Below are positions 277-4,538 of a stretch of 8,958 bases of DNA, in pieces. Numbering within the stretch: position 1 is the first letter of the stretch; every line of letters begins with the position of its first letter. Both the position numbers and the translations under genes were made by a program. The DNA is taken from positions 1-8,958 of the forward strand of contig JAIOSZ010000015.1 of assembly GCA_021107335.1 (NCBI GenBank), written 5' to 3'. The notes beneath the pieces were generated by a model that worked only from the letters and a program-made list of their open reading frames with translations, was not told the DNA's origin and did no database searches. This DNA comes from Desulfuromonadaceae bacterium (GTDB taxonomy: Bacteria > Desulfobacterota > Desulfuromonadia > Desulfuromonadales > Syntrophotaleaceae).

Positions 277-392
277 GGGCCGTTTCTGGATGAAAAATAG
301 CTGAGAGTGTGGATGGAGAGCTGGTTTCATAGGTAGCATAGAACACCGACCCCTCCGTTATTCACGACCTCGCTTCACATAGGAGTATGATC

Positions 393-1856
393 ATGAGTGA
401 ACAGTGCGCAATAAAAAAAGTGACCGAGATCACTACCGAAGAGGTAGATCGGATCAAGGCATGGATCAATACCGAAGAATATAAAGAAAAGAACCTGGCC
501 CGCGAGGCCTTGGTGGTCAATCCGGCCCATGCTTGCCAGCCCCTCGGCGCCCAGCTGGTGGCTCACGGTTTTGAAAGTACCTTGCCCTTTGTCCACGGCT
601 CTCAGGGCTGCGCTTCGTACTACCGTAGTTCCTTAAATCGTCACTTTCGTGAGCCGGCCCCGGCGGTTTCTGACGCCATGACCGAAGACGGCGCCGTTTT
701 CGGCGGCCAGAACAACCTGCACGAAGGTCTGGAGAATGCCTATGCTCTCTACAAGCCGAAGATGATCGCAGTCTTCACCTCTTTCATGCCCGAGGTTATC
801 GGCGATGACCTCACCTCGTACATCCAGAACTCCCGGAACGAAGAGATCATTCCCCAGGATTACCCGGTGCCCTACGCCAATACGCCGAGCTTCAACGGCA
901 GCCACGTCCAGGGCTACGATCCCATGCTCAAGTCCATTGTCGAGTGCCTGGGCGGCGGCAAGCGGGTCGAAGGTAAGAACAACGGGCGGCTCAATCTGAT
1001 CCCGGGCTTTGACACCTGCACCGGCAACTACCGTGAATATAAGCGGATGATGAAGGCCTTTGATATCCCTTGCACCATGCTGGCGGATATCTCCGAAACC
1101 TTTGATTCGCCTTTGACCGGTACTTACCATCCTTTCCCTGGTGGTACGCCGCTGGACGAAACCGCCGACGTGCTCAACTCTCAGGCCACCATCGCCCTGC
1201 AGAGCTATTCCACCAAAGCCACCATGAAATGGATGGCCGAAAACACCGATGCGCCAGTTGAGACGCTGCCCATGCCCATCGGCGTTAAGAAGACCGACGA
1301 GATGTTGCTGAAGATCTCCGAGCTGTTTGACAAGCCGGTTCCAGAAGAGCTGATCGCTGAGCGCGGCCGGGTGGTGGACGCCATGACCGATGCGCATCAG
1401 TACCTGCATAACAAGAAATTCGCCATCTACGGCGACCCCGACTGGTTGCTCGGCATGGTTTCTTTCCTGCTCGAGATGGGTGCCAAGCCCTATCACATTC
1501 TTTGCAGCCGTTCGAACAAGAAGTTCGCTAAGGTATTGCAGGCTTTGCTCGACACCTCGCCTTACGGTGCCGATTGTAACATCTGGATCAACAAGGACCT
1601 GTGGCACCTGCGCAGCCTCTGTGCCACCGATCCCGTCGATGCAATGATCGGCAACTGCCATGGCAAGTTCATCACTCGCGACCTGGGCATTCCGTTGATT
1701 CGAGCCGGTTACCCGATTATCGACCGGGTCAACCTGCACCGCTACCCCACGGTCGGTTACCAGGGTACGATGAACCTGCTGACCTGGACGGTTAATACTC
1801 TCCTCGATCAGGTAGATGCCACTTGCGAGGATCGTAACTTCGAGATTATGCGCTAA
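393..1856 (+). CDS. nifK: Nitrogenase molybdenum-iron protein beta chain NifK (P-cluster ligand Cys replaced by Phe)
   Basis: Beta subunit of the alpha2beta2 dinitrogenase, which reduces N2 at FeMo-co. NifK contributes half of the P-cluster that passes electrons from NifH to the cofactor. The 487-residue protein carries the NifK hallmarks NPAHACQPLGA (Cys48 = Azotobacter beta-Cys70), VHGSQGCASYYRS (Cys73 = beta-Cys95), TPSFNGSHV (Ser166 = beta-Ser188), a DP.WLLGMVSFLLEMG segment, KDLWHLRS and a C-terminal IRAGYPIIDR...GYQG region. These separate it from NifN, NifE, VnfK and AnfK. The start at 393 is preferred to the ATG at 387 because AGGAG (381-385) lies 7 bases before it but only 1 base before 387. 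The oddity is position 131: the segment reads FTSFMPEVIGDD, with Phe where the third P-cluster Cys (beta-Cys153) belongs. Spacing from Cys73 is exactly 58 residues, as in Azotobacter. Otherwise the gene looks intact. nifD is not visible in the 392 bases upstream. Confidence 0.97.
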   Translation: MSEQCAIKKVTEITTEEVDRIKAWINTEEYKEKNLAREALVVNPAHACQPLGAQLVAHGFESTLPFVHGSQGCASYYRSSLNRHFREPAPAVSDAMTEDGAVFGGQNNLHEGLENAYALYKPKMIAVFTSFMPEVIGDDLTSYIQNSRNEEIIPQDYPVPYANTPSFNGSHVQGYDPMLKSIVECLGGGKRVEGKNNGRLNLIPGFDTCTGNYREYKRMMKAFDIPCTMLADISETFDSPLTGTYHPFPGGTPLDETADVLNSQATIALQSYSTKATMKWMAENTDAPVETLPMPIGVKKTDEMLLKISELFDKPVPEELIAERGRVVDAMTDAHQYLHNKKFAIYGDPDWLLGMVSFLLEMGAKPYHILCSRSNKKFAKVLQALLDTSPYGADCNIWINKDLWHLRSLCATDPVDAMIGNCHGKFITRDLGIPLIRAGYPIIDRVNLHRYPTVGYQGTMNLLTWTVNTLLDQVDATCEDRNFEIMR

Positions 1857-1983: not shown

Positions 1984-2415
1984 GTGGCACTGACGCGACG
2001 ACTGACCGTGGTTAACGATCCGGTCAAGAAAGGATTTGTCATGAAAGTAGCCTTCGCCAGCAGCGACAATCATCACATCGACCAGCACTTTGGCTGGGCG
2101 GAAAAATTCGCAATATGGGAAGTGCAGATGGATCAGGCCCGTTTTTCCGGCATGGTACAAGTTGAGGCCGCCGGGGACGGTGTTGAAGATAAAATCCAGA
2201 CTCGGGTCGATGCTTTGATGGATTGCTCCATTGTTTATGTCAATCAAATTGGCGGCCCGGCAGCAGCTAAGCTGGTGGCACAGAAGATCCACCCCCTCAA
2301 GAGCAAGGGGGAGGAAACGATTTCTCAGGTTGTCGAGAAGCTGCAGCAGGTGTTGCAGGGCAACCCGCCCCCCTGGCTGCGCAAAGCCATGCTCAAAGAC
2401 GAGCGGCCTGCGTAA
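1984..2415 (+). CDS. nifX: NifX, FeMo-co precursor carrier (NifX/NafY family)
   Basis: Small cytoplasmic protein of the dinitrogenase iron-molybdenum cofactor family (PF02579 type). It binds NifB-co and the VK-cluster and moves them towards NifEN during FeMo-co assembly. The 143 residues show the family opening KVAFASSDNHHIDQHFGWAEKFAIWEV (about residues 21-47), including the conserved QHFG, and the later NQIGGPAAAKLV segment. A short polar N-terminal extension (ALTRRLTVVND) resembles that of Azotobacter NifX. This supports the GTG start at 1984, which has GGGAGGA (1971-1977) 6 bases ahead. An internal ATG at 2041, also with a purine-rich site 6 bases ahead, would give a 124-residue form. The C-terminus past residue 105 is a helical, lysine-rich tail. 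It follows nifK here, whereas nifX often follows nifN. Confidence 0.9.
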   Translation: MALTRRLTVVNDPVKKGFVMKVAFASSDNHHIDQHFGWAEKFAIWEVQMDQARFSGMVQVEAAGDGVEDKIQTRVDALMDCSIVYVNQIGGPAAAKLVAQKIHPLKSKGEETISQVVEKLQQVLQGNPPPWLRKAMLKDERPA

Positions 2416-2594
2416 CACATGACGCCAAAATGGATATTCTGTCGCGATTGTCCGTCAGACTCTTATTTAAAGAACTAAACCCCCGGGTTCTAACAGCTTC
2501 CTGGCGGGCGAATATGTGGCTTGATAACGCCACCAACAGGCATTAAATTTACCCCGAAAGTTACCATCGGAAATTGCACAAGGAGAGATTACTC

Positions 2595-2858
2595 ATGGCG
2601 TACTACATCGCAAAAACTAAAGACGGCAGTGACTGGACCCCGACCTTCGTCGAGTCTATCGATGATGAAAAATGTATCGGCTGCGGCCGTTGCTACAAGG
2701 GCTGCTCCCGCAAGGTTCTCGGTTTCAAGGAGATTGACGAAGAGGATTCGGCTCGCATGTTTATGTATGTTGCCGAGCCCGGCAAGTGTATCGGCTGTGC
2801 CGCTTGCGGCGTAACCTGTCCCAAAAAAGCGTTTTCTTTCGCACCTCTGGAAGTCTGA
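2595..2858 (+). CDS. fdxB: nif-associated 2[4Fe-4S] ferredoxin (ferredoxin III, FdxB type)
   Basis: Small cytoplasmic electron carrier of 87 residues. Two cluster motifs are visible: CIGCGRCYKGC (Cys27, 30, 33, 37) and CIGCAACGVTCP (Cys65, 68, 71, 75). The first has no proline after its last Cys and is followed by an insert of about 27 residues before the second. This spacing and the opening AYYIAKTKDGSDWTPTFV match nif-specific ferredoxin III rather than the ordinary clostridial type. Proteins of this type are thought to feed electrons to nitrogenase or to cofactor assembly. The ATG at 2595 is chosen because AGGAGAG (2581-2587) lies 7 bases before it; the upstream TTG at 2574 has no such site. 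It lies between two NifX-family genes, probably in one transcript with the second. The symbol is given by family resemblance. Confidence 0.9.
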   Translation: MAYYIAKTKDGSDWTPTFVESIDDEKCIGCGRCYKGCSRKVLGFKEIDEEDSARMFMYVAEPGKCIGCAACGVTCPKKAFSFAPLEV

Positions 2859-2913: not shown

Positions 2914-3258
2914 ATGCTGATTGCTGTTGCTACCAGTGACCAAAGGAAGGTCGACCTTCATTTTGGAAAGGCCTCTGCTTTTGCCCTTTTCGAGATAGAC
3001 GCTGAGTCGACTCGTCTGGTGAAAGAGGTTGCAGTAGCGCAATATTGCACCAGCGACCCCAATCACACTTTTCATGAGCAGCGTTTTTCCGCCATTGCCG
3101 AGGCCTTGACTGGTTGTCGAGCCGTGGTCTGTGCGCAGATCGGCGATCTGCCGCGCATGTCCTTGGCCGAGGCGGGCATTCAGGCTTTCACCGCTCAAGG
3201 GGCGGTGGAAGATGCGCTGCACAACGCTTTTGTGTTGCTCTCTGCGGGGGGATGTTGA
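2914..3258 (+). CDS. Small NifX-family protein (dinitrogenase FeMo-co domain)
   Basis: Stand-alone domain of 114 residues of the NifX/NafY/NifB-C-terminal family. The opening LIAVATSDQRKVDLHFGKASAFALFEID contains the family's conserved HFG. The later segments HTFHEQRFSAIAEAL and CRAVVCAQIGDLPRMSLAEAGI match the rest of the fold. It probably binds a FeMo-co precursor or apo-dinitrogenase. Start: AAGGAG (2902-2907), 6 bases before ATG. It differs clearly from the NifX at 1984 and is not a duplicate copy. Because the NifB encoded downstream lacks the NifX-like C-terminal domain that many NifB proteins carry, this protein may supply that function in trans; this is inference. The gene is followed by a strong terminator, so it ends the unit. 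Confidence 0.85.
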   Translation: MLIAVATSDQRKVDLHFGKASAFALFEIDAESTRLVKEVAVAQYCTSDPNHTFHEQRFSAIAEALTGCRAVVCAQIGDLPRMSLAEAGIQAFTAQGAVEDALHNAFVLLSAGGC

Positions 3259-3329
3259 CGGGCCTCTACAGGAGGGGCTTGGCCGGTGCGTAAAAAAAGA
3301 CCTTCCGGAGCTGCAATTGCCAAGGGCAT

Positions 3330-3371
3330 GGGCAGGCAGACCTCAAAAAGAGGCTGCCTGCCCCTTTTTTT
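3330..3371 (+). terminator. Intrinsic terminator ending the nifX-ferredoxin unit
   Basis: GGGCAGGCAG (3330-3339) pairs with CTGCCTGCCC (3354-3363). An inner CCTC/GAGG stem closes an A5 loop, and seven T residues (3365-3371) follow. This is a textbook rho-independent terminator, 72 bases after the preceding stop. The next promoter begins three bases later. Confidence 0.92.
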
Positions 3372-3373
3372 GC

Positions 3374-3389
3374 TGGCACGGGCTATGCA
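3374..3389 (+). promoter_or_regulatory. sigma54 (RpoN) -24/-12 promoter for nifB
   Basis: TGGCACGGGCTATGCA matches the consensus TGGCACG-N4-TTGCW with a single mismatch (ATGC for TTGC). The GG and GC dinucleotides are separated by exactly 10 bases. It lies just after a terminator and before nifB, on the same strand, so transcription should start near 3400. Genes of nitrogen fixation are commonly RpoN-dependent. I did not find a convincing NifA-type TGT-N10-ACA activator site in the 120 bases upstream. Confidence 0.8.
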
Positions 3390-3422
3390 ATAAATACTAT
3401 CAACAACAGGCGTCAGGCAAAT

Positions 3423-3487
3423 TTCGAAAAAGTTTCGCTCCTTTCCATAGGGTTGGAGGTTTTCAGGCTCCAACCCACTTTTTCGAA
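3423..3487 (+). ncRNA. Nested hairpin in the nifB leader
   Basis: TTCGAAAAAGT (3423-3433) pairs exactly with ACTTTTTCGAA (3477-3487). Inside it GGGTTGGAG (3450-3458) pairs with CTCCAACCC (3468-3476) around a 9-base loop. The two right arms abut, while the left side carries a 16-base bulge (3434-3449). If transcription starts near 3400 this forms the first domain of the nifB leader. It does not match a riboswitch class I recognise. It may be a dispersed intergenic repeat or an RNA-protein site. Confidence 0.55.
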
Positions 3488-3522
3488 GCATTAAGACAGG
3501 CTGAACGCTATTTAGTGAATGA

Positions 3523-3567
3523 CAGGCACAACGGAGTGCTGCGAAGAATAATGGCAATGAAGCCCCA
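3523..3567 (+). promoter_or_regulatory. Candidate ANTAR-protein antitermination site (two A1/G4 hexaloop stems)
   Basis: Stem P1 is CA-G-GCAC / GTGCTG (3523-3541, one bulged G) with loop AACGGA (3530-3535). Stem P2 is GGC / GCC (3553-3555, 3562-3564, possibly extended to 3552/3567) with loop AATGAA (3556-3561). Both loops are six bases with A in position 1 and G in position 4, the signature of RNA sites bound by ANTAR response regulators such as NasR, EutV and GnfR. The 3' half of P2 uses the same bases as the 5' arm of the terminator at 3560, so forming P2 would block termination. P2 is short (3 base pairs plus a bulged extension), which is the main weakness. Confidence 0.62.
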
Positions 3568-3600
3568 CAGGGATATCCCTGTGGGGCTTTTCTATTTTTT
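3560..3600 (+). terminator. Intrinsic terminator in the nifB leader (attenuator)
   Basis: A 30-base perfect palindrome (3560-3589; each arm AAGCCCCACAGGGAT) is followed by TTTCTATTTTTT. It sits between the sigma54 promoter and nifB, 24 bases before the nifB start codon. It therefore must be read through for nifB to be expressed from that promoter. This makes it an attenuator rather than an end-of-operon signal, unless the 3400-3600 transcript is itself a small RNA. Confidence 0.9.
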
Positions 3601-3623
3601 AGCCTCAACAAAGGAGTACAACC

Positions 3624-4538
3624 ATGTCAGCAAGCAGTTGCTCCCATTCCAGCAATCAGGCAGGTCACCCTAACAATCAGTCAGGGCACCCCTGTTTTGG
3701 CGGAGATCACAAGAAGGCCGGTCGTATTCATCTGCCGGTGGCTCCCGGCTGCAATATCAAGTGTGGGTTTTGTGAGCGCAAGTTCGATTGTGCCAACGAA
3801 AATCGCCCCGGCGTCACCAGTCGGGTTCTTTCACCAACCGAAGCCCTCGATCGATTGCGGCTGGTGATGAGCCACCCCGTCGGAGGCAAAAACATGCGCG
3901 TGGTGGGGATTGCCGGTCCTGGGGATCCCCTGGCCAACGAAAATACCTTTGAAACCTTTCGCCTGGTAAAAAAGCACTTTCCGCAGCTGATGTTGTGCCT
4001 GTCCACCAACGGCATGTTGTTACCAGAGCGCATCGGTGAACTGAAAGACCTGGGCGTACATAGCGTCACGGTAACCATCAATGCCTTGACCCCTGAAGTA
4101 GGGGCCAATGTTTATGAATGGGTACGAGCCGATGGCCAGCGCCTGACCGGCGAGGCCGGGGCCGGATTGCTTCTTGAACGGCAGATGGCCGGAGTCGAAG
4201 CGGCGGTGGCCGCAGGCATGCTGGTCAAAGTCAATTCCGTTTACATCCCCGGTGTCAACGACCACGAAACCCTGCCTCTGGCATTGGCTGCCCGCAAGCT
4301 GGGTGCCAGCATGATGAATATTCTGCCGCTGATTCCTCAGGGGATTTTCCATGACCGGGAGCGACCCTCGGATCTGATCATGGAGTTGGTGCGCAACCAG
4401 GCCGAGTCGATTCTGACTCAGGCCCGCCACTGCGGTCAGTGTCGCGCCGATGCCGCCGGCCTCATTGGCCAGGATCTCGACCTATGCTCGTTGAAGAAAC
4501 CAGCCGAGGTTTCCGGAAAGCTGCGCTGTTCCGGTTAG
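3624..4538 (+). CDS. nifB: NifB, radical SAM FeMo-co core synthase
   Basis: NifB fuses two [4Fe-4S] clusters and inserts a SAM-derived carbide to make the 8Fe NifB-co, precursor of FeMo-co. In this 304-residue protein the conserved HPCF (22-25) and GRIHLPVAPGC lead to the radical SAM motif CNIKCGFC (Cys43, 47, 50). GIAGPGDPL and STNGMLLPE are the usual SAM-binding segments. VKVNSVYIPGVNDHE lies in the core, and RHCGQCRADAAG near the C-terminus provides the CxxC (270, 273) for the substrate clusters. The N-terminus holds a short repeat (NQAGHP / NQSGHP). Start: AAGGAG (3611-3616), 7 bases before ATG. The protein ends soon after the core, so it lacks the NifX-like C-terminal domain present in many NifB proteins. 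Expression appears controlled by the sigma54 promoter at 3374 and the leader terminator at 3560. No terminator separates it clearly from modC. Confidence 0.96.
   Translation: MSASSCSHSSNQAGHPNNQSGHPCFGGDHKKAGRIHLPVAPGCNIKCGFCERKFDCANENRPGVTSRVLSPTEALDRLRLVMSHPVGGKNMRVVGIAGPGDPLANENTFETFRLVKKHFPQLMLCLSTNGMLLPERIGELKDLGVHSVTVTINALTPEVGANVYEWVRADGQRLTGEAGAGLLLERQMAGVEAAVAAGMLVKVNSVYIPGVNDHETLPLALAARKLGASMMNILPLIPQGIFHDRERPSDLIMELVRNQAESILTQARHCGQCRADAAGLIGQDLDLCSLKKPAEVSGKLRCSG

Follow-up and report, generated by a model that had tools for sequence, protein, structure and literature searches.

The task of NifB is to build the metal cofactor of nitrogenase, and the stretch in front of its gene in a Desulfuromonadaceae bacterium raises the question of whether nifB is governed at the RNA level as well as at its promoter, by a terminator whose formation an ANTAR protein would prevent. 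We addressed this question in a window of 8,958 nucleotides (the whole stretch of DNA that was analysed) and in homologous leaders drawn from named and unnamed relatives.

The nifB leader and its setting

The window carries a run of nif genes followed by mod genes (Table 1). Its NifB consists of the radical SAM core and matches TIGR01290 over profile positions 9-279 of 441 with 308.6 bits; this falls short of the cut-off of 343.65 set for the whole protein, and the match does not extend to the C-terminal part of the profile. Among named loci, those with the nearest NifB carry the labels Desulfuromonadales or Desulfuromonadaceae. The same order of nif and mod reading frames (nifH, then nifB, then mod) is apparent in G003, a closed genome from the window's genus, as judged from the positions of the reading frames and from family tests of nifH, nifD and nifB. 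No nifD above the family cut-off was found in this metagenome-assembled genome, which is 67% complete, and its nifH contains an internal stop; the nif system of this assembly may therefore not be intact. The first 366 nucleotides of the window, upstream of nifK, are unlike the nifD end of G003; this segment and contig C304 of the same genome (locus L171) may reflect assembly faults or a damaged cluster. Directly downstream of nifK, a long hairpin lacking a T run (1861-1925; sub-threshold Rfam match) could act in the processing or stability of the RNA between nifK and nifX.

The gene run from nifX through the ferredoxin to the NafY-like gene is closed by a terminator-like inverted repeat located upstream of the nifB promoter and missing from the program's list of terminator-like sites. 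At 3313-3336, a GCAATTGCCnnnGGCATGGGCAGG-like sequence was noticed by eye; such a sequence recurs ahead of the nifB promoter in several relatives, and it may be an activator site that has merged with the terminator upstream.

Sigma54 promoters follow a consensus of the TGGCAC-N5-TTGC type. The sequence TGGCACGGGCTATGC fits the TGGC-N8-TGC frame of such a site, with ATGC at the TTGC position, and would place the transcription start near 3400. The same place is recurrently occupied: a TGG[CT]-N8-TGC sequence lies within 180 nt upstream of the first hexaloop hairpin (P1) in 26 of 35 leaders, as compared to 0.7 expected from simple letter shuffles. Further downstream, P1 has five pairs, one of them G-U (arms 3525-3529/3536-3540), and the second hairpin, P2, only three (3553-3555/3562-3564). 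The dual-hexaloop RNA is defined by a pair of hairpins whose stems have 3 bp or more and whose hexaloops bear A at position 1 and G at position 4 (PMC3369931), and both hairpins of the leader have these features.

The intrinsic terminator T1, with a stem of 14 pairs (9 of them G-C) and a tetraloop followed by TCTATTTTTT, has the highest pair count among the 15 terminator-like sites of the window (9.2 expected from shuffles), and its tail ends 23 bases before the nifB ATG. Its 5′ arm takes G4, A5 and A6 of the P2 loop together with the entire 3′ strand of P2, so that P2 and T1 are mutually exclusive by sequence. Thus the promoter sequence, the two stem-loops with loops AACGGA and AATGAA, and the terminator overlapping the second of them ahead of nifB, all proposed in the initial annotation, are found as described. 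The predicted fold energy of T1 (-28.6 kcal/mol) is far below that of P1 and P2 together (-9.5 kcal/mol), and therefore termination should be the default unless P2 is held; since the P2 stem is only 3 bp long, P2 is expected to need a protein.

Table 1. Features of the nifB region, with the regulator gene and the nifH leader site of the same genome
Feature	Position	Strand	Basis
nifK	387-1856		
nifX	1984-2415		
nif-specific ferredoxin	2574-2858		
NifX/NafY-like gene	2914-3258		
Terminator-like inverted repeat GGGCAGGCAG...CTGCCTGCCC with T run	3330..3371	+	by eye
Sigma54-type (-24/-12) promoter sequence TGGCACGGGCTATGC	3374..3388	+	sequence
Hairpin T0, terminator-like, after the promoter and before P1	3423..3487	+	
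P1 hairpin GGCAC-AACGGA-GTGCT, hexaloop with A1 and G4	3525..3540	+	sequence, R2 match, covariation
P1-P2 linker, 12 nt	3541..3552	+	alignment A2
P2 hairpin GGC-AATGAA-GCC, hexaloop with A1 and G4	3553..3564	+	sequence, alignment
Intrinsic terminator T1, stem 3559-3590 and U-rich tail	3559..3600	+	terminator scan
nifB, short form (radical SAM core, no NifX-like domain)	3624..4538	+	TIGR01290
modC, modA, modB, solute-binding-protein gene	downstream of nifB		
Receiver-ANTAR response regulator gene	L001:977-1549		
nifH leader site	G000:C304:1375-1414 (L171)	minus	R2, sequence

Conservation of the hexaloop pair and the ANTAR regulator

Of 62 loci that were scanned, 42 gave a candidate hexaloop pair; the 59 named loci were covered except for L109-L111, L114, L116, L119 and L120. 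After dropping eight doubtful candidates (L031, L067, L074, L083, L085, L090, L100 and L106), the remaining 34 were aligned with the window (alignment A2). Across these 35 leaders, P1 is invariant at A4-C5-A6, G9 and G12-T13, and P2 conforms invariably to GGCAA.G..GC, with its GGCAANGNNGC unchanged. Among 34 distinct leaders, covariation is seen at three of the five P1 stem pairs: 25 double-change cells were counted, a number reached in none of 500 shuffles, and the covariation score was 0.301 as compared to at most 0.104 when the pairing was slid; both loop-closing pairs show no variation. P2 hardly varies, with a single, one-sided change in the 35 leaders, so that its pairing is without covariation support. 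The proportion of paired cells, 98.9%, is inflated because rows were picked for having at least four of the five P1 pairs. The hairpins are conserved, and the pairing of P1 is supported by covariation.

A covariance model (R2) built from 32 leaders with the window's genus left out ranks positions 3525-3566 first in the window's own genome (39.3 bits, E = 2.4e-7) and also finds the site in the two nifB-bearing relatives of the same genus. We then counted sites in a sample of 146 genomes of the class, 117 of them with nifB, accepting R2 matches with E ≤ 0.01 on the same strand and at most 320 nt upstream of a nifB match. Sites were found in front of nifB in 60 genomes, namely 38 of the 51 nifB-bearing genomes in the order, many of which are the source of R2 training rows, and 22 of the 66 belonging to other orders; this count derives from 66 R2 matches, apparently near nifB or on the same contig, and 61 nifB rows. 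At E ≤ 0.01, an R2 site near nifB was missing from 13 of the 51 genomes in the order and from 44 of the 66 in other orders. The NifB proteins of the 66 genomes outside the order share at most 59% identity with that of the window, those of the training loci at least 62% (measured over just a short stretch in L117 and L118). As the former are less similar than the latter, the 22 sites appear to be independent of the training set.

The only ANTAR protein found in the window's genome (PF03861, 77.4 bits, contig C17) is a response regulator with a receiver domain, whose gene is followed by draT and then draG (L001:977-3025). The products of draT and draG carry out the ADP-ribosylation of nitrogenase and its reversal, and draT lies directly downstream of the regulator gene in 34 of 45 genomes having both. 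When 13 nif-bearing genomes, the present one among them, were scanned with the Pfam model, each yielded exactly one ANTAR protein. Regulator orthologs (E ≤ 1e-20) were detected in all 43 genomes with a strong nifB match, again including this one, as compared to 7 of 15 without such a match; these relatives are not mutually independent, and the orthologs are partial or in pieces in G001, G010 and G021. In the same genomes, R2 sites (E ≤ 0.01) were found in 38 of the 43 with nifB, in 3 of the 7 with the regulator and without nifB, and in none of the 8 devoid of both nifB and a regulator ortholog, one of which (G018) carries a different ANTAR protein. Two genomes outside the 13-genome scan, G041 and G047, have two orthologs each; together with the seven genomes that have the regulator and no detected nifB, they indicate that other targets are possible.

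The regulator aligns with the EutV structure 6wsh (E = 9.3e-33) and with 1s8n, a putative antiterminator. As read manually from the alignment, 9 of the 11 RNA-contact residues of EutV are identical (R142, K143, K147, K149, E160, Y164, M172, N173 and R175), and two are changed (R168 to Q and R177 to S). Among 30 regulator loci viewed, taken from 50 genomes with a match, 21 contain a CGGC-N8-TGC sequence 55-86 nt upstream of the regulator match, a raw count without shuffle control; this sequence is sigma54-like with C in place of the first T, and the exact TGG form is seen in 1 of the 30. The initial annotation had staked its reading on, among others, two points that concern sequence, conserved hexaloop pairs in homologous nifB leaders and an ANTAR protein in the genome. 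The pairs are conserved inside and outside the order, although not in every genome, and one such protein is present, which lends support to the predicted ANTAR-dependent antitermination.

Additional hairpins and alternative readings of the leader

Between promoter and P1 lies a hairpin that the initial annotation did not mention, T0, with an inner stem (3450-3458/3468-3476) followed by ACTTTTT and an outer stem formed by TTCGAAAAAGT and ACTTTTTCGAA. The T0 stretch is present in the nifB leader of all three nifB-bearing genomes of the genus (G000, G002 and G003). Elsewhere in these genomes no copy was found except for a weak 27-nt match in G003, and the idea of a repeated element was consequently rejected. 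The distance from the sigma54 sequence to P1 is 148-152 nt in five leaders, as compared to 28-55 nt in the other 21 with such a sequence, and these long leaders are confined to two genera, the window's own and a second one of its family (L063 and L064). Both have a terminator-like hairpin between promoter and P1, of different sequence, and both T0 and its counterpart are possibly new.

These data bear on a two-stage attenuator, in which T0 would be a first terminator under its own control, upstream of a real ANTAR site. The occurrence of hairpins of differing sequence at the same place in both long-leader genera speaks for this reading, as do fold z-scores of about -3 in four of the five long leaders and the ability of the stretch upstream of T0 to pair with its 5′ arm in an alternative hairpin. 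On the other hand, the T0 tail has only five T and begins two bases past the stem, T0 is missing from the program's list of terminator-like sites, L063 reaches a z-score of only -1.4, inspection by eye revealed no A1/G4 hexaloop in T0, and the short leaders of the other relatives show no T0. On balance we regard a separately controlled first terminator as unlikely, yet worth keeping in mind.

A different kind of second terminator is found in other relatives. By strict rules applied to 49 named nifB leaders, seven (L070, L072, L076, L079, L081, L096 and L117) have two terminators, the 5′ arm of each being overlapped by an A1/G4 hexaloop, while 27 have one such terminator (some of these single calls, as in L093 and L100, look spurious) and 15 have none. 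The second hexaloop stem starts 13-23 nt past the first terminator, is mostly of the AGC-AARGGC-GCT type, and in none of the seven leaders is a P1-like hairpin found between the first terminator and the second hexaloop. The window's leader has no second hexaloop terminator, and has T0 instead. As argued in the EutV structure paper, the ANTAR dimer does not touch both hexaloops simultaneously, and a single hexaloop is named as the minimal motif (PMC8934654), which the lone second hexaloops would fit. These lone-hexaloop terminators are possibly new. It is conceivable, though we would put it forward only tentatively, that the nifB leaders of Desulfuromonadales are multi-gate attenuators, with T0 preceding the ANTAR gate in the window's family and a succession of P1, P2, terminator, second P2-like hexaloop (P2′) and second terminator elsewhere in the order. 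If so, the second terminator would be guarded by a lone P2′ that lacks a P1, and these leaders would provide natural evidence that one hexaloop suffices, as proposed from the EutV structure.

The leader scan required A at the first loop position, which excludes loops starting with G. By eye, a P1-like hairpin with such a loop was seen in 6 of the 20 loci without a candidate (L081, L084, L087, L088, L096 and L097). The G-start P1 hexaloops of these six loci and of the nifH leader described below keep G4; A1 belongs to the described ANTAR consensus (PMC3369931).

Alternatively, the leader could be an attenuator worked by a leader peptide or by a metabolite-binding RNA, the hexaloops being incidental. 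The leader is indeed long, with about 125 nt before P1 and a further stable hairpin, and a 10-codon reading frame beginning with ATG overlaps P1 in the window. This ATG is not kept in the two relatives of the same genus, being absent in L062 and replaced by TTG in L004, and a leader peptide over P1 was rejected for this reason. Rfam returned no family at gathering score; a trpB match aligning over P1 and the terminator was rejected at 30.8 bits, the gathering score being 59. Moreover, what is conserved between genera is A1 and G4, the pairing of P1, and P2, and we consider this explanation improbable. Finally, with so short a P2 and so permissive an A..G.. loop rule, one might imagine a terminator accompanied by two accidental hexaloop-like hairpins, yet the match of a model built without the genus, the repeated presence of such sites at this position ahead of nifB in 60 genomes and the covariation of P1 leave chance with a negligible probability.

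The proposed switch, further targets and known systems

Taken together, the comparisons made here argue that the nifB leader is very probably a sigma54-driven switch that terminates by default and would be read through upon binding of the ANTAR regulator. Under low fixed nitrogen, an NtrC-type activator would start transcription from the sigma54 promoter, and the regulator gene, with the recurrent sigma54-like CGGC-N8-TGC sequence upstream, would be induced alongside. A kinase would phosphorylate the regulator, whose dimer would then hold P2 and so prevent the terminator from forming. Expression of nifB, and likely of nifHDK too, would require both promoter activation and an active regulator, as in an AND gate. 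A nitrogen response of the switch is predicted, and termination at T0 is a possibility.

The initial annotation had also suggested a search for further hexaloop pairs; one was found before nifH, with a weak score. About 230 nt upstream of nifH, on a separate contig of the same genome, lies a leader of the nifB design, with TGGCATATGTCCTGC, a P1 loop GATGGG, a P2 of GGC-AACGAA-GCC and a terminator, followed by eye by a further terminator with an A..G.. loop. Its site reaches 19 bits (E = 0.048) and is third in the genome under R2, outranked by C89:623-674 (E = 0.034), after which no T run was seen by eye. Its P1 loop starts with G rather than A. Mutation of A1 reduced eutP induction (PMC3369931). 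Among relatives, such leaders precede nifH in L143, L144, L148 and L165, this gene being recognised by its protein start and, in L165, also by family, and one precedes a nitrogenase-associated TIGR01616 gene in L146. A site before nifV in G026 (L161) has P2 and the terminator, and lacks a clean P1 hexaloop.

Antitermination of nif genes by an ANTAR protein is not without precedent. In Geobacter sulfurreducens, Ueki and Lovley are said to have described in 2010 such control by GnfR, reportedly a two-component ANTAR regulator acting on activated nif promoters whose leaders contain terminators. The GnfR gene (GSU2822) presumably lies beside nifHDK, whereas the present regulator gene is followed by draT and draG, and the label GnfR could be applied to it by analogy only. 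Pelobacter carbinolicus belongs to a lineage related to that of the window. In that organism ANTAR targets have been predicted at three nitrogenase transcription units (Ramesh et al. 2012, PMC3369931), and these RNAs resemble the window's in their dual A1/G4 hexaloops, in the terminator overlapping P2 and in the nitrogenase units themselves. nifB may be among these units, whose genes are given in a figure, the main text having no word that starts with "nif" (PMC3369931). ANTAR sites are described there as common at nitrogen genes, and the passages concerned make no mention of T0, of lone-hexaloop second terminators or of the draT-draG linkage, all of which come from the present leaders and genomes. 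NasR/nasF of Klebsiella and AmiR/amiE of Pseudomonas likewise combine a hexaloop-terminator leader with nitrogen genes; NasR has a fused NIT domain with which it senses nitrate (PMC3369931), whereas the present regulator has a receiver domain. EutV/EutW, acting on eut in Enterococcus faecalis, share with our system the receiver-ANTAR protein, the dual hexaloop and a P2 shared with the terminator (PMC3369931, PMC8934654). Unlike EutV/EutW, the present system has other target genes, a sigma54-type promoter sequence and a P2 stem of 3 bp. In the open-access literature covered by the searches, no paper on ANTAR control of nifB was found by title or abstract start. Given the P. carbinolicus predictions and what is reported of GnfR, this type of switch is already known, and the window represents a strongly supported further case of it.

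If the proposed antitermination switch operates, an order of anaerobic diazotrophs would have a further layer of control, at the RNA level, in the synthesis of its FeMo-cofactor. Together with the leader before nifH and the succession of the regulator gene, draT and draG, this would suggest that a single RNA-binding regulator is tied both to the making of nitrogenase and to its switch-off. The question of single versus dual hexaloops can be tested directly on dozens of leaders, among them tandem and lone-hexaloop ones.
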